Virus record (IMG/VR): IMGVR_UViG_3300048032_000109
Span: 1-20,828 of that record
DNA from: a virus
Direction: 5' to 3' (one strand)
Length of the DNA stretch: 20,828 bases
Shown here: one piece after another, positions 5,471 through 18,962 of the stretch
Position numbering within the stretch: position 1 is the stretch's first letter
Layout: each line of letters begins with the position of its first letter
Program-made: the position numbers and the translations under genes
Notes under the pieces: generated by a model
What the model was told of the DNA's origin: nothing
Seen by the model: the letters and a program-made list of their open reading frames with translations, nothing else
Database searches by the model: none

Positions 5471-7123
5471 ATGAACAAGAAAGAGCTATCTAAACTGCTC
5501 AAAGAAAAGCAGAGAAGGTCTAGGCTTAAGGATTATGAACATAACTTTACTAAGTTTGCAGAAGAACAAATACAAATCGTTACTAAGGACGTATCCAGGG
5601 GGTTTGTTCCATTTAAATTCAATAAAGCCCAACAGATAATTACAGAAAAATTAGAGGAACAACGGAATGCTACTGGAAAAGTTAGAGCAATTATTCTTAA
5701 AGCTAGGCAGCAGGGGATATCTACATACTGCGCTGGACGAGTCTTCTGGAAGAGTTATTATACTCCCCATTCAAGATCAGTTGTCATGGCGCATGATTCG
5801 GCTACGTCAGATGCTCTATTTGCTATGTCCAAAAACCTTATTAGAAACATGGAGGGAAACCTTGCACCCAATGAAATACGTAGTAATGCTAAAGAAATTA
5901 TTATTAACAGTCCTGCTATGGGCGATAAAGACGCTACAGCTTCCTATAGGCTTTATACAGCGGGGTCTCCAGAAGCTGGAAGAGGTACTACGCCGACTAT
6001 AGCACACTGTTCTGAGGTAGCTTTCTGGCAACATGATGAGAAGATCCTAGCAGGACTCTTCCAAGGTATCTCACAGGCTGACGGTACTGAGGTTATCCTG
6101 GAGTCTACTGCTAATGGTGCTCAAGGGGAGTTTTACAGGCTCTGGAAGGGCGCTGAGATGGGGGAGAATGAATATCTACCTATCTTTCTACCGTGGTATA
6201 TTACACCAGAATACACTAGAGAACCCCCAGAGAACATGGAGTTGACAGTTGAAGAAGAAAAACTACGAGATAAACACGACCTCACAGACGGACAACTCTA
6301 CTGGCGAAGACTTAAGATTGCAGAAGGAGGAGAACTCAAGTTCAAACAAGAGTACCCCTCAACAGCTGACGAAGCGTTTATTATGTCAGGATCTAACGTC
6401 TTCAACCTGGAGCGTTTGGACGCACTAGTTCCAGAATCTTATCAAAGAAGGTCTGAGTGGGACCCTGCATCGAAGATGTTTGATGAGAATAAAGAAGGTT
6501 CTTTGTACATATACCAGTTTCCTGACTGGAATGAACCCTATGTGGTTGCTGCTGATGTAGCCTTGGGGGTTGGTCAGGACTATTCTGCTGCTGTTGTGTT
6601 AAATAAAAAGTATGAGATTGTAGCACACTATAGGAATAACAAGATTGACCCCAGTATGTGGGGTGATCTTCTGTTTTATTTAGGCCGTTATTATAATAAT
6701 GCCCTATTAGCAGTAGAATCTAACAGTATGGGTATTGCAACCCTGCAGAAACTAGACAGTACAGGCTACATAAACCTGTATAGACAGACAAAGATAGCTA
6801 ATGTGTCCTCGGAAGAGGGTGTTAGGTTGGGTTTTAGAACGACATCTGCTACAAAACCAGCGATTATAGCTAATCTTAAAAACCTAATAGAGAATGAAGA
6901 GATACTTATCCCGTCTGTGCAGATAATTAAAGAACTTAAGGACTATATTTCTACGGATACGGGTAAGACAGAAGCTGCACCCAACTGTTATGATGATTCG
7001 GTTATAGCATTAGCGATAGGTTGTGAAGTATTACGCACACATTGGGACAGATTGGGGACTTCAAATGTTTCATGGAAACAAAAGATGTCTGGTATAGAAC
7101 AACCAGAAGTAAACTGGATATAG
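5471..7123 (+). CDS. terL: Terminase large subunit (ATPase and nuclease)
   Basis: This 550-residue DNA-packaging motor subunit has the two expected domains. The N-terminal ATPase carries LKARQQGIS at residues 76-84 as a variant Walker A motif, a Walker-B-like strand with acidic Glu182 (IAHCSEVAF), and the coupling motif ESTANG at 211-216. The C-terminal RNase-H-like nuclease carries Asp362 and Asp370 in AADVALGVGQDYSA, Glu416 in LAVESNSMG and Asp508/Asp509 in CYDDSVIAL. These fit the three metal-binding acidic positions. In the family it cuts concatemeric DNA and drives it through the portal into the prohead. GAGGA lies ten bases before the ATG. No small terminase subunit is recognised in the window. 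Confidence 0.95.
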   Translation: MNKKELSKLLKEKQRRSRLKDYEHNFTKFAEEQIQIVTKDVSRGFVPFKFNKAQQIITEKLEEQRNATGKVRAIILKARQQGISTYCAGRVFWKSYYTPHSRSVVMAHDSATSDALFAMSKNLIRNMEGNLAPNEIRSNAKEIIINSPAMGDKDATASYRLYTAGSPEAGRGTTPTIAHCSEVAFWQHDEKILAGLFQGISQADGTEVILESTANGAQGEFYRLWKGAEMGENEYLPIFLPWYITPEYTREPPENMELTVEEEKLRDKHDLTDGQLYWRRLKIAEGGELKFKQEYPSTADEAFIMSGSNVFNLERLDALVPESYQRRSEWDPASKMFDENKEGSLYIYQFPDWNEPYVVAADVALGVGQDYSAAVVLNKKYEIVAHYRNNKIDPSMWGDLLFYLGRYYNNALLAVESNSMGIATLQKLDSTGYINLYRQTKIANVSSEEGVRLGFRTTSATKPAIIANLKNLIENEEILIPSVQIIKELKDYISTDTGKTEAAPNCYDDSVIALAIGCEVLRTHWDRLGTSNVSWKQKMSGIEQPEVNWI

Positions 7124-7162: not shown

Positions 7163-7190
7163 AAGAGATCCGCGTTGTCCTCATGCGTCC

Positions 7191-7214
7191 GGTGGTACGC
7201 AGCGGTATACCACC
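7191..7214 (+). other. Hairpin GGTGGTA / TACCACC
   Basis: A 7 bp perfect stem with a ten-base loop, 20 bases before the next start codon and just ahead of its GGAGG site. It may influence translation of the holin-like gene. Confidence 0.35.
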
Positions 7215-7234
7215 ACTTATTTACGGAGGATAGT

Positions 7235-7441
7235 ATGTCAGTAGAAACATTTCTCAAATGGAAGATACTACCTCGTTTTATGATGTTGGCTAGTACAGTA
7301 ATGTCTTGGCGATGTGCTGAGTGGTTTATGGATCTTCCTGATCCAACAGGAGCACAGTCAGCTTTTGTGTCCGTAGTAATGGGCGTAATGACGGGTGTTT
7401 TTGGAATTTGGATGGGTCACGAACATAAAGGGGACAAATAA
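7235..7441 (+). CDS. Holin-like small membrane protein
   Basis: A 68-residue protein starting MSVETFLKWKILPRFMMLA. GGAGG lies six bases before this ATG; the frame continues 20 codons further upstream, but without a site. Two hydrophobic segments (residues about 11-32 and 40-60) are joined by a short loop, WFMDLPDPTGAQ, and the C-terminus is charged (GHEHKGDK). This two-helix layout and size fit class II phage holins, and the sequence resembles small membrane proteins of marine phages seen near the structural genes. No endolysin is recognised in the window, so the lysis role is an inference. Its stop overlaps the next start (TAATG). Confidence 0.6.
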   Translation: MSVETFLKWKILPRFMMLASTVMSWRCAEWFMDLPDPTGAQSAFVSVVMGVMTGVFGIWMGHEHKGDK

Positions 7442-8493
7442 TGCCACCAAGAAATCACAAGGATTGGAAGAAAGAACCTAATGTAGAATACATAAACTCT
7501 AGGATATATTCAGATTGGGATATATACAGCCAGGAACTAGAAACCATATTCTCTAAGGTATGGGTTCCTGTTTGCCATGAAAGCGAACTACCTGAAGACA
7601 ACTGGTATCGGACCTCAACAATTGCACATACACCAATTGCTGTAATAAAAAATAAACATGGTATTCATGTGTATAAAAACACAGGGCTTCATGGTGTATC
7701 AGGGCCAGTAGGTATTATAACTGGTAATCGACTACATAGTGAAATAGGATACGGTGGGATGGTGTGGGCTACCCTTGATGATAACCCAACACAATCTCTA
7801 AAAGAATGGCTTAATGGATCATTTGATTGTATTATAGATGCTATTGATGCTGAACCATTAGAGGTGTTTCATTACCACAAGGCTATTATAGATACGAATT
7901 ACAAACTGTGGCATGACACTAACTCAGAGTTCTACCACGACTTTATGCACTACTTTAATCGTGTGTCGGGGTTTAACGATGAATACTTTGCTAGAAAAAA
8001 TATACCATTTGATAACGGACACGTTAATGTCAGCAGCTTCACAGTCAACTATGAGGAGTACGATGGGTTTGAGGATAGAGGAGAGCTTAGTTTCCCTAAC
8101 CTTCCACCCAATCAATGGTATATGGTTGATTTGTTTCCTGGATTTAATTTTAATCTTAGGGGGAGTGCTTATAGAAGCGATAGTGTTACGCCTCTTGGAC
8201 CAAACAAAGTTCTTATTGAGTTTCGTGGCTATGGTCTCAAAAGTGACTCACCAGAAGATAGGAAGACCCGTATAAACCACCACAACTCTATTTGGGGTCC
8301 ATTCGGTAGAAACTTACACGAAGACCTTATTGGTGTCGCTGGTCAGGGCACAACAATGCGTCCAGGCACAGAAGATCGTTTCATACTTCATGGTCGGCAT
8401 GAAAACAGAACCATACACGATGAAGTAGGCATGAGACATTATTATGAGGAGTGGGGGAAATGGATGGGGATAAATCCAAAAATAGCAGCATAA
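7441..8493 (+). CDS. Rieske-type ring-hydroxylating oxygenase homologue without a Rieske cluster
   Basis: A 350-residue homologue of oxygenase alpha subunits. The N-terminal part matches the family (RIYSDWDIYSQELETIFSKVW at about 21-41, then VCHESELPEDNWYRT and TPIAVIKNKHGIHVYKN). Where the family has the first Rieske motif C-x-H this protein has TGLH, keeping His84 but replacing Cys with Gly82. The second motif, C-x2-H, and its surroundings are absent: the chain passes straight to GYGGMVWATLDDN. Only two Cys exist (45 and 130). The C-terminal catalytic domain keeps a plausible mononuclear iron site: Glu163, His166 and His170 in NSEFYHDFMH, and Asp295 in NLHEDLIGV. Family members are usually 400-450 residues, so the shortening matches the lost cluster region. 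The start is coupled to the holin-like gene. Substrate unknown. Confidence 0.8.
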   Translation: MPPRNHKDWKKEPNVEYINSRIYSDWDIYSQELETIFSKVWVPVCHESELPEDNWYRTSTIAHTPIAVIKNKHGIHVYKNTGLHGVSGPVGIITGNRLHSEIGYGGMVWATLDDNPTQSLKEWLNGSFDCIIDAIDAEPLEVFHYHKAIIDTNYKLWHDTNSEFYHDFMHYFNRVSGFNDEYFARKNIPFDNGHVNVSSFTVNYEEYDGFEDRGELSFPNLPPNQWYMVDLFPGFNFNLRGSAYRSDSVTPLGPNKVLIEFRGYGLKSDSPEDRKTRINHHNSIWGPFGRNLHEDLIGVAGQGTTMRPGTEDRFILHGRHENRTIHDEVGMRHYYEEWGKWMGINPKIAA

Positions 8494-8687
8494 AACCAGT
8501 AGCTTTAGAAGTAGGTGAAAATAGTTTTGAGCTTGTGTTACGTATATTAGGTAATGAGTTTATAGCAATACGAATAGGATCAACAAACTTTAGTGGTAAA
8601 CTAATAGCAGGTGGTGTCTTATTACTTTTCTTTACGTTTATGCTTCTGGAGGTATTTGGCCTGTCAAGGATTATGGGAGTTGAGTAA
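8460..8687 (+). CDS. Small protein with C-terminal membrane segment
   Basis: A 75-residue protein starting MDGDKSKNSSIKPVALEVGE. AGGAG sits eight bases before this ATG, inside the end of the oxygenase-like gene; a GTG start at 8451 is possible. Residues 1-40 are polar with a strand-like FELVLRILGNEFIAIRIG. Residues about 47-68 are a membrane helix (LIAGGVLLLFFTFMLLE). Function unknown. It is coupled to its neighbours (34-base overlap upstream, TAATG downstream). Confidence 0.65.
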   Translation: MDGDKSKNSSIKPVALEVGENSFELVLRILGNEFIAIRIGSTNFSGKLIAGGVLLLFFTFMLLEVFGLSRIMGVE

Positions 8688-9085
8688 TGCCCACCAGAGT
8701 CAATGAAAATACAGAAGTAGCTTTACCATTACGAAATATTATAAGCATGGTAGCAGCAGCTAGTGTTGCAACATGGGCGTACTTTGGAATTATAGAACGT
8801 CTTAATCAAATGGAAACAAACGTAACCATGATGGAAGCAGACGTAGGTCAGAACACAGAGTTTCGTATTAAATGGCCTCGTGGTGACATGGGAAGTCTAC
8901 CCGCAGATAGTGAACAATATATGCTTATTGAACACCTTGCGGGAGAGTTAGAAAAACTACAAACCGATATTGAAAGTGGTAAGGCTCCGTATGATCAACA
9001 ACAAAAGTTGACTTTAGAGTTCTATGAAAAACGAATAACTAGCTTAGAAGAAAACATAGAAAAACTAAGAAACGGAGATAAGTAA
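8687..9085 (+). CDS. Membrane-anchored coiled-coil protein, spanin-like layout
   Basis: A 132-residue protein starting MPTRVNENTEVALPLRNIIS. A membrane helix spans residues about 16-37 (RNIISMVAAASVATWAYFGI). Helical, charged sequence follows (ERLNQMETNVTMMEADVG), and a C-terminal coiled coil (FYEKRITSLEENIEKLRNG). One helix plus a long coiled coil resembles inner-membrane spanins of phage lysis cassettes. No outer-membrane partner with a lipobox is seen, so this remains a guess. Overlaps of TAATG type join it to both neighbours. Confidence 0.65.
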   Translation: MPTRVNENTEVALPLRNIISMVAAASVATWAYFGIIERLNQMETNVTMMEADVGQNTEFRIKWPRGDMGSLPADSEQYMLIEHLAGELEKLQTDIESGKAPYDQQQKLTLEFYEKRITSLEENIEKLRNGDK

Positions 9086-16758: not shown

Positions 16759-17646
16759 ATGGCAATGACATATACGGAACTTGTTGCTAAAGTTCGTAGT
16801 TGGTCTAACCGCGATGAAGAAGTAGTAAGTGACGACATTATTAAGGATGCTCTTAAATATGCAGCAGATAAAGCATACAGAATTTTAAGAGTCCCTCCAT
16901 TAGAAAATGTTGCTATTTATGAAAAGTCTTTGTTACAGGCTGGAACTACAGCAGCTAATAGTTTACAGGGTAGTATTACAGAAATACAATTACCCTATGA
17001 TCTTATAGAATTTATTCAAATTAGAGAAGTAGATTCTGCTGGATTAACCACACGTGTATTTAATGAAAAATTAGACATACGAACATTTAATGATGCTTTA
17101 AGTGAAAAGTATACAAACCTTAACTACTGGGCAAGACAACAAAATGTTGTATACCTTACTCCAGGGTTTGGTGCTGGATCAACAAGCAATCAAGCGAACA
17201 CAATAGAACTTTATTATTATCGTAGACTACCTGCATTAGATGCGGTATACGCTGTGACTGTTCTTAACTACAATGCGGGATTTCTTACTACAACAGGTGC
17301 AGGATCAGGTGTAGCTAATTCTAAACAATTATACTTTAATAGTAATACAGGAACAACAGCATACGCAACAAGTGCAGACGCACAGGCAGCTAGTGCTGGT
17401 GGTACTGTAACAAACGCTTACTACATTGGTATTGCAACCCCTAACTGGCTACGTGATGAAAACCAAAGGATTCTTTTGTTTGGGGCATTAGCAGAGGTGT
17501 TTGCTTATGTTCAAGATGATCAACAAGCAGCAAAATACAATCAAGCATTCTTATCAGAAATTACAGAAGCAAATGATGAAGATGCTAAACGTAACGCTTC
17601 AGGCGGTAATTTACAAGTAAACTTTAATGGACGAGGGTTAATATAA
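16759..17646 (+). CDS. Head-tail adaptor protein, SU10-adaptor type
   Basis: A 295-residue protein starting MAMTYTELVAKVRSWSNRDE. The N-terminal helical region (about 1-60) follows the adaptor pattern YTELVAKV-x2-WSNRDEE...DDIIKDALKYAADKAYRILRVPPLE. A strand region with ITEIQLPYDLIEFIQIREVD follows, and a final helical part (about 225-275, RDENQRILLFGALAEVFAYV). It joins the portal to the tail in phages with SU10-type heads. AGGAGG precedes the ATG. The stop overlaps the fibre gene start. Confidence 0.78.
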   Translation: MAMTYTELVAKVRSWSNRDEEVVSDDIIKDALKYAADKAYRILRVPPLENVAIYEKSLLQAGTTAANSLQGSITEIQLPYDLIEFIQIREVDSAGLTTRVFNEKLDIRTFNDALSEKYTNLNYWARQQNVVYLTPGFGAGSTSNQANTIELYYYRRLPALDAVYAVTVLNYNAGFLTTTGAGSGVANSKQLYFNSNTGTTAYATSADAQAASAGGTVTNAYYIGIATPNWLRDENQRILLFGALAEVFAYVQDDQQAAKYNQAFLSEITEANDEDAKRNASGGNLQVNFNGRGLI

Positions 17647-18962
17647 TGACTACACCAGCAAGACCTGGCTCCTTTACAGGAGCTACTGATAATGCCGCCA
17701 GTGGTGGATTATTTACAGATACCCTTATTGACGGTATCCCCGATATTATAGGGGCCGATGTAGCATCTGCAGAAGCAGCCGCCGCAGCCGCAAAGGTATC
17801 AGAAACAAACGCTGCAACCTCAGCCACTGGTGCAGCTACAAGCGCAACTAACGCTGGAACTAGCGCCACGGCTGCAGCAAGTAGTCAAACAGCAGCAGCA
17901 AGTAGCGCCACAGCAGCTGCTAGTTCTGCTAGTAGTGTGGCAGCAGATGCCGCTACAGCGACAACTAAGGCAGCTGAAGCAAGTACGTCTGCAACAAACG
18001 CAGCGGCTTCACAATCAGCAGCAGCAGCGTCACAAACTTCAGCAGCATCTAGTGCAACTTCAGCTACTGGGTCTGCTAACAGTGCAACAACCTCTGCTAC
18101 AGCGGCAGGTAACAGTGCTACAGCAGCGGCTAATAGTGCTACTGCAGGAGCAAGCAGCGCAACGGCAGCAGCCAATAGTGCTACAGCAGCAGCAACGTCA
18201 GAAACTAATGCAGCAAGTTCGGCTACTTCAGCAACCACTAGTAAAAATACAGCTACTACTCAAGCTACTAATGCGGCAACAAGTGCAACGAATGCAGCCA
18301 CGAGTGCAACGACTGCGACAACTCAAGCAAGTAGTGCAACAACGTCAGCTGCAACAGCTACGACACAGGCTACTAAAGCAGAAGACTATGCTGTAAAAGT
18401 AAACGGAGTTGTCCCTAGTACTTCAGATTATTCATCTAAAGCATGGGCTGTGGGTGGTACAGGTGTAGATCAAGCTTCAGGCGGTGGTAACGCTAAAGAC
18501 TGGGCTACTGAAACAACAACAACTGCTGATAACACAGAATACTCAGCTAAAGAATATGCTATTGGTGTACAGGCAGGGAATACTAACGGTTCTGCTAAAC
18601 AATGGGCTTTAGGTGGCGGTAACTTTGTTATGTCCACAGCAGTAACAGGATCAGGCGGTACAGCACAATATTCGGCTAAGTACTGGGCAGATCAAGCTGC
18701 TAGTAGTGTAGCTAACTTTGATGAAAAATATTATGGTAGTTATGCAAGTGATGCAGCAGCCGAAAACGCACATGAAGCAGCAGGTAAAACAGTAGCAGTA
18801 GGTGACTTGTATTATAATACAGGTGATCAAGCTGTTAAATATTGCACAGTTGCTCCGTCTGGAACAGGCGCACCAGTAGGAACATGGGTAGCAATTGAAG
18901 CAACAGACACTAGCGGTTTTGCAACAAACGGGTTTTCAATTGCAATGTCAATCGCATTATAG
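17646..18962 (+). CDS. Ala/Ser/Thr-rich tail fibre protein
   Basis: A 438-residue fibre. Residues about 1-35 could anchor it to the virion (PARPGSFTGATDNAASGGLF). Residues about 38-245 are a low-complexity run built from units such as SATAAANSATAA and TNAATSATT, expected to form a long trimeric stalk. After it come repeated YSAKEYAIG, SAKQWALGGG, YSAKYWADQAA modules (about 255-355), common in phage tail fibres. The C-terminal part has VGDLYYNTGDQAVKYCTVAP, then SGTGAPVGTWVAIE. The TAATG overlap couples it to the adaptor. The receptor-binding tip is probably on this or on the following small proteins. Confidence 0.8.
   Translation: MTTPARPGSFTGATDNAASGGLFTDTLIDGIPDIIGADVASAEAAAAAAKVSETNAATSATGAATSATNAGTSATAAASSQTAAASSATAAASSASSVAADAATATTKAAEASTSATNAAASQSAAAASQTSAASSATSATGSANSATTSATAAGNSATAAANSATAGASSATAAANSATAAATSETNAASSATSATTSKNTATTQATNAATSATNAATSATTATTQASSATTSAATATTQATKAEDYAVKVNGVVPSTSDYSSKAWAVGGTGVDQASGGGNAKDWATETTTTADNTEYSAKEYAIGVQAGNTNGSAKQWALGGGNFVMSTAVTGSGGTAQYSAKYWADQAASSVANFDEKYYGSYASDAAAENAHEAAGKTVAVGDLYYNTGDQAVKYCTVAPSGTGAPVGTWVAIEATDTSGFATNGFSIAMSIAL
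17749..18390 (+). repeat. Low-complexity GCA/ACN repeat tract inside the fibre gene
   Basis: About 640 bases of near-repeats such as AGTGCTACAGCAGCAGC and AGTGCAACGAATGCAGC. The units vary in spacing and base use, so this is a protein-level repeat and not a perfect tandem array. It offers many sites for slippage or recombination that would change stalk length in frame. Confidence 0.7.

Follow-up and report, generated by a model that had tools for sequence, protein, structure and literature searches.

The locus described here raises the question of how an oxygenase alpha subunit that has lost its Rieske cluster could still obtain electrons for its iron site, and why a phage would carry it. The window, i.e. 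the whole stretch of 20,828 nucleotides that was analysed (IMG/VR virus record IMGVR_UViG_3300048032_000109), contains this gene, whose product we call the iron half, together with the following features.

5471 to 7123, plus strand: terminase large subunit, with Roseobacter phage CRP-7 as nearest isolate (62%).
7175 to 7441, plus strand: 88-aa ORF upstream of the iron half, matching PHROG 10198, of unknown function.
7441 to 8493, plus strand: putative Rieske-less MsmA-type oxygenase alpha subunit of 350 aa, the iron half (ORF, domain, alignment and structure model).
7627 to 7731, plus strand: loop replacing the Rieske cluster motifs, residues 63-97, in fast drift (dN/dS 0.43).
7927 to 7929, plus strand: Glu163, at the position of the bridging acid (from the mononuclear iron to the Rieske cluster of the neighbouring subunit), identical in 81/81 phage sequences and aligned with the Asp of D-x2-H in solved oxygenases.
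7936 to 7938, plus strand: His166, iron ligand by alignment, identical in 81/81.
7948 to 7950, plus strand: His170, iron ligand by alignment, identical in 81/81.
8323 to 8325, plus strand: Asp295, iron ligand by alignment, identical in 81/81.
8451 to 8687, plus strand: 78-aa ORF overlapping the 3' end of the iron-half gene (ORF list), without a match in the PHROG search.
8687 to 9085, plus strand: 132-aa protein whose best match in the PHROG search is a family of unknown function, with a weaker match to a holin family (E 1.5e-4).

A sequence-only reading of the window had described the 350-residue product of the plus-strand ORF 7441-8493 as having TGLH in place of the first cluster motif and no CxxH, and this was confirmed on the sequence: the region of the first Rieske motif reads NTGLHG and the CxxH motif is gone. 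When the protein was searched against Pfam, Ring_hydroxyl_A was above its cut-off (27 versus 24.9 bits) and the Rieske domain was matched by its first half only, below cut-off (18.3 versus 20.3 bits), and no PHROG family was found at E 1. The best sequence matches among solved structures were the terephthalate, biphenyl and cumene dioxygenases, and Glu163, His166, His170 and Asp295 align with the residues that we take to be the bridging acid and the three iron ligands of the solved oxygenases. A structure model made from 74 related sequences reached a pLDDT of 86.6 and a pTM of 0.88, an earlier model from near-identical phage sequences having been poor (pLDDT 48.4). Residues 12-345 of the model matched oxygenase alpha subunits in a structure search, with salicylate 5-hydroxylase (7c8z_A; Z 33.1, rmsd 2.4 over 308 residues) as the top match and terephthalate dioxygenase at Z 32.8. 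The superposition that the first reading had proposed as a check thus recovered the oxygenase catalytic fold at Z ~33, and a lack of structural match, which would have refuted the assignment, was not seen. According to the model, the phage protein has the full alpha-subunit fold of a Rieske oxygenase, and its sequence has no Rieske ligands.

At least 599 stretches of viral contigs encode a relative of this protein, and the best 80 were read, which together with the window makes 81 phage sequences. A CxH-Xn-CxxH motif (n 10-30) was found within the first 120 residues in none of the 81, and E163, H166, H170 and D295 are identical in all of them, the window included; the position of the bridging acid is occupied throughout by the Glu that aligns with the Asp of solved oxygenases. 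Most of residues 142-335 are invariant and residues 76-97, where the cluster motifs would be expected, are variable, so that the scoring of these positions in homologues, also suggested beforehand, came out in favour of the proposed iron site. The dN/dS of the phage gene was 0.032 for the catalytic part, 0.098 for the N-terminal scaffold remnant and 0.43 for the loop of the lost cluster (182 pairs with dS between 0.15 and 1.0; 158 pairs for the loop). As far as residues can tell, a 2-His-1-carboxylate iron site is present. An assembly error as the source of the missing cluster, which would have overturned this description, is excluded because the best 80 viral relatives and 15/15 SAR116-type bacterial copies share the same loss. 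Damage to the iron site by a one-residue deletion was likewise rejected: H-x3-H occurs in 63/63 loci of canonical MsmA, the spacing is normal for this family, and therefore it is no defect of the phage protein.

The gene is found in at least two types of phage, since 26 of the 80 loci carry a terminase or portal of the window type and 18 of the 80 carry the HMO-2011 type; no locus carries both, and 36 of the 80 show neither within the flank examined. For the terminase (TerL) and portal of the window the nearest isolate is CRP-7, which itself gave no match to the iron-half gene. The first reading had placed the gene in a late operon, coupled to a holin-like gene ahead of it. The overlap is there and the late surroundings broadly hold: the start codon of the iron half shares one base (7441) with the end of the upstream 88-aa ORF, an arrangement also seen in HMO-2011, and of seven marker genes chosen from the late region of the window or HMO-2011, one or more have a relative at 68 of the 80 loci. 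The holin-like label does not hold, the upstream ORF belonging to PHROG 10198. Among the seven markers only lysozyme, present at 34 of the 80 loci, is annotated as a lysis gene, and late expression of the iron half is a guess from gene position alone. The late region of the window also encodes, at 17646-18962, a repetitive 438-aa protein rich in Ala, Thr and Ser.

Bacterial relatives were examined in the best 80 of 160 confirmed matches, which form two main groups, 63 canonical and 15 SAR116-type loci, plus the loci L095 and L096. The canonical group shares 52-60% identity with the phage protein in the best segment, and the active-site segments are nearly identical. The pattern CXH-X26-CXXH, the MsmA signature according to Henriques and De Marco (2015; source available in part), occurs in 62 of these 63 loci, the remaining one having an ambiguous residue, and within the stretch examined the loci carry relatives of msmB (63/63), msmC (59/63) and a tauA-like gene (35/63). 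The phage protein resembles canonical MsmA in its active-site segments and in the H-x3-H spacing, and its SAR116 counterpart also has the same operon partners. It differs in lacking the Rieske cluster and the long-spacer CXH-X26-CXXH (0/81) and in being shorter (350 versus 409-433 aa), and the phage gave no match to msmB, C or D of the canonical msmABCD operon; in SAR116, msmB, msmC and a reductase are in the vicinity of the iron half. On identity and on the trees, the catalytic domain of the phage protein shares ancestry with that of MsmA, the methanesulfonate monooxygenase subunit. The first reading was therefore right about a Rieske-type oxygenase homologue and had left the family unnamed. 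The second group (L081-L094 and L108, some records being under other names) is closer, with 72-76% identity, and its iron halves have the cluster motif in 0/15 and the iron motif in 15/15.

SAR116 includes IMCC1322, the host of phage HMO-2011, and it is there that a candidate partner was found. This protein, the Rieske half, is an MsmA relative of 787-857 aa with an intact cluster motif, fused to an FAD reductase. It occupies the canonical msmA position, adjoining a divergent set of ABC transporter genes (tauABC-like) and just before msmB and msmC. The four cluster ligands are present in 15/15 distinct genes (17 alignment rows, two of them repeats), and no bridging acid and no His or Asp iron ligand could be aligned in any of the 15. 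The loss of the iron site is read from a poorly conserved part of the alignment; where rows carry a deletion, the letters opposite the second His are alignment noise, and no row has a His there. Instead of a deletion, the IMCC1322-like and L092 copies show substitutions at the ligand positions, as if these copies represented an earlier stage of the loss. Fusion to the reductase is found in 14 of the 15 genes (Pfam names the domains in L081 and L166), unlike G008 (L169:14189-16575), in which the Rieske half and the reductase are two adjacent ORFs.

In L081, msmC is followed by an unknown 279-aa protein, the iron half, a LysR regulator, a TauE sulfite exporter, panB, fhs and folD. From the start of the iron half to the Rieske half the distance is ~2 kb in L081, ~7 kb in the genome inferred to be that of IMCC1322 (G029) and ~11 kb in G002 and G008 (L167-L169); since the halves can lie up to ~11 kb apart across other genes, they are not always on one transcript. 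The neighbours of the pair in SAR116 (ABC transporter, TauE sulfite exporter, FTHFS and FolD) would fit the breakdown of methanesulfonate (MSA). In G002 both halves are present twice, the copies being spread over two contigs (L167 and L168). The 279-aa protein (L081:6953-7792) had no Pfam match at E 0.1, and relatives of it occur in 11 of the 63 canonical msm loci. In the IMCC1322-like locus, three genes between msmC and the gene for this protein (L166:10912-15502) match molybdopterin oxidoreductase, 4Fe-4S and DmsC, i.e. a putative DMSO-reductase-like set beside the split oxygenase, which would likewise fit MSA breakdown; dmsABC near msmA in SAR116 is mentioned in the available part of PMC8547437.

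Next to these complementary losses stands the distribution of the two genes. Within the host family (61 genomes), the same 12 genomes have both halves, with the Rieske half of G006 as a fragment, 49 have neither, and no MsmA of canonical type was listed for any of the 61. When the 15 SAR116-type genomes behind the loci are considered, the Rieske half was found in 14 (in G006 in pieces), and in the fifteenth, G005, the contig starts inside msmB. The order of G012 (297 genomes) yielded one iron half, accompanied by a Rieske half, ten matches of canonical type by identity, eight more distant ones and one partial, and an iron half together with a canonical-type match was found in none of the 297 genomes. 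Since the genomes surveyed are related, the co-occurrence is an association and not independent proof.

The two halves are also under mirror-image selection, the conserved part of each being the decayed part of the other. Across six SAR116 gene pairs, dN of the Rieske half was 0.003-0.025 in the Rieske domain versus 0.083-0.217 in the catalytic remnant, and dN of the iron half was 0.026-0.08 in the N-terminal part versus 0.002-0.015 in the catalytic part. Three of the six pairs are among the same three genomes, and only dN was compared because several dS values were saturated.

We consider it probable that in SAR116 MsmA has been split into two complementary alpha subunits, with the electron crossing the interface between them, and that the phage carries the catalytic half alone; activity, assembly and substrate are inferred. 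Transfer from the Rieske cluster to the iron takes place between subunits, over ~12 A as against 45 A within a chain, via a conserved bridging acid (PMC12445004, of which part was available). Therefore two chains that each miss one site could still form a working site at their interface, and that Glu163 is kept although the protein has no cluster agrees with what interface transfer predicts. Iron half and Rieske half would be neighbours in a hetero-alpha ring that also contains MsmB. Electrons would pass from NADH through the FAD domain and the MsmC ferredoxin to the cluster of the Rieske half, and from there across the subunit interface by Glu163 to the iron held by His166, His170 and Asp295, where iron and O2 would oxidise methanesulfonate, or a close relative of it, to formaldehyde and sulfite. 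Methanesulfonate is inferred as the substrate from the active site and the operon only; it may have changed, and these data do not show growth of SAR116 on it.

In such an arrangement the phage would supply the iron half only, and Rieske half, reductase, ferredoxin and transporter would come from the host. One possible reason would be to replace a subunit that harms itself through uncoupled oxygen chemistry, in the way proposed for phage psbA, so that C1 units and reducing power keep flowing. The idea that the rest of the MsmA system lies elsewhere in the phage was not supported, none of it being found, though the window is a 20.8-kb fragment and the other loci are stretches. Relatives of the Rieske half, MsmB and MsmC were not detected in viral contigs with single-sequence patterns, which reach close relatives only, and msmB, msmC and the reductase had no match in ~85 phage stretches, the window and HMO-2011 included. 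The Rieske-half query matched 84 of the 85 stretches, in MsmA-type genes only; these were taken as cross-matches to the iron-half gene, of which a homologue is known in each. Without a viral Rieske half, MsmB or MsmC in these searches, the phage protein would depend on the host for all three.

The complementary losses and the occurrence of both halves in the same genomes are established at sequence level. The partnership itself is inferred from complementarity and from co-occurrence in related, non-independent genomes, with no complex or biochemical data. The first reading had left open whether the protein takes electrons from another partner, uses a different oxidant or is no longer an oxygenase; the first of these options gains support, with the host Rieske half, which has kept the cluster, lost the iron site and lies in the same region of exactly the same genomes, as a specific candidate, although still an inferred one. 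What counts against the split is that the host of the window phage is not known and that its nearest isolate relative infects a host of the Roseobacter group. This leaves room for a mixed trimer, in which the phage iron half would join a normal two-site MsmA of the host and be fed by its clusters. Many phages carry the gene, their hosts are nearly all unknown, canonical MsmA exists in one SAR116 bin (L107/L172) and in other bacteria, and the same subunit interface would serve. However, the sole named host, IMCC1322 (G029, as inferred), carries both halves of the split and gave no canonical-type match, and we regard the mixed trimer as unlikely. A decoy that stops or redirects the host oxygenase, or a non-catalytic structural protein, would agree with the position of the gene in the late region, but constraint on the protein is strongest at the iron ligands and the active-site segment, which a decoy could do without, and SAR116 bacteria keep the same protein as a resident gene of their own, which makes such a role very improbable. 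Rieske oxygenases can run on peroxide and the iron site is complete, but a protein working alone by a peroxide shunt, without electrons and O2, is hardly credible given that the bridging Glu is kept in 81/81, the Rieske-domain scaffold is still constrained (dN/dS 0.098) and the cellular copies are accompanied by a Rieske half in 12/12 family genomes, all of which point to an electron partner.

A Rieske domain acting in trans has a precedent in the caffeine N7-demethylase NdmC/NdmD/NdmE. As in NdmCDE, the SAR116 system has a Rieske-less oxygenase and a Rieske domain fused to a reductase (14/15 genes), the phage standing alone without such a partner. It differs from NdmCDE in the substrate, in the make-up of the Rieske donor (in SAR116 a degenerate alpha subunit whose reductase is of FAD type), in the retention of a ferredoxin gene, and in that the catalytic part is also borne by phages. 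The second precedent is the oxygenase of strain CBB5 in entries 6ICK/6ICL, which we take to be NdmA/NdmB. With its alpha3-alpha'3 composition, it combines two different alpha subunits in one oxygenase (PMC12445004) but, as far as the available part of the source goes, NdmA and NdmB both keep the Rieske cluster, unlike the SAR116 pair.

The phage protein belongs to the same family as gp61 of HMO-2011 and the second 'MsmA' of IMCC1322. The HMO-2011 'MsmA' was described as a possible auxiliary metabolic gene (PMC4928673), and the absence of CXH-Xn-CXXH from gp61 and from one of the two IMCC1322 copies was noted by Henriques and De Marco (2015), who, in the portions of their paper that were available, report neither an iron-site loss in the other copy nor a complementary pair. 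No mention of a complementary iron-less partner in SAR116 was found in the literature searched, which was available in part. As far as these searches reach, the complementary loss in the SAR116 partner, the co-occurrence and the view of the phage gene as the catalytic half are new. Viral msmA has been counted by name as a sulfur-cycle auxiliary gene, e.g. in PMC10134843 (again a source available in part); if MsmA is indeed split, viral msmA could function only where the host provides a Rieske donor. What had been a puzzling, seemingly 'broken' metabolic gene of a virus would become one testable half of a two-protein enzyme, the pair would be a natural experiment on electron transfer between subunits, with each metal site lost in a different chain, and a marine phage may restock one working part of a host machine.

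Trees were calculated from thinned sets of 31 of the 81 phage sequences (11 in the two later trees) and 13 to 37 of the 63 canonical ones. When canonical MsmA served as outgroup, the SAR116 iron halves fell into a single clade (96/93 and 100/99) within the phage sequences, but phages as one clade were not rejected (AU p 0.22 and 0.30). A single clade (SH-aLRT 96) also holds the Rieske halves; its neighbour (89) is L107, the canonical MsmA from a SAR116 bin, and it lies apart from the iron half. In the tree before last, the Rieske-half rows fell among canonical MsmA, not beside L107 alone. In the last tree, from which the L092 copy (R_L092) was left out because of its very long branch, the smallest starred set with the IMCC1322-like Rieske half was that row plus two canonical ones (99/91), L107 being the nearest. 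Uniting the iron half with the Rieske half gave p 0.023 with and 0.065 without the long-branch row, and uniting both with L107 gave p 0.077 and 0.073, so that duplication in place seems weakly disfavoured (p 0.02-0.08). The phage may have come first: an iron half without a Rieske cluster would have arisen there to supplement a host MsmA with both sites, after which a SAR116 ancestor would have captured the gene into its chromosome and its own MsmA lost the iron site to become the Rieske half. The place of the SAR116 iron halves within the phage sequences and that of the Rieske half near L107 would agree with such a course. We hold this to be possible but doubtful; if true, a host enzyme would rely on a viral subunit that has been domesticated. 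What counts against it is that 15/15 SAR116 iron halves, and 0/81 phage sequences, still show a Cys-Pro remnant of the first motif. GC content gave no sign of a recent transfer, the host iron halves matching the GC of their neighbours, and on these data the direction of gene flow remains unresolved.

Two groups of records are mentioned apart. The INPHARED contigs CAKLQH/CAKLQF (H3-H8, H29-H30 and H37-H38), filed as 'Acinetobacter phage MD-2021a', carry several antA-type oxygenases, thcD and nirB, and look like bacterial DNA filed as phage. L095:2742-3800 and L096:8001-9089 encode a Rieske-less iron half of low GC (0.34-0.35) on contigs that resemble phage DNA and were binned with bacterial genomes. 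Among 20 proteins scanned on these contigs, matches to baseplate, endolysin and ribonucleotide reductase PHROGs suggest a third, larger type of phage.
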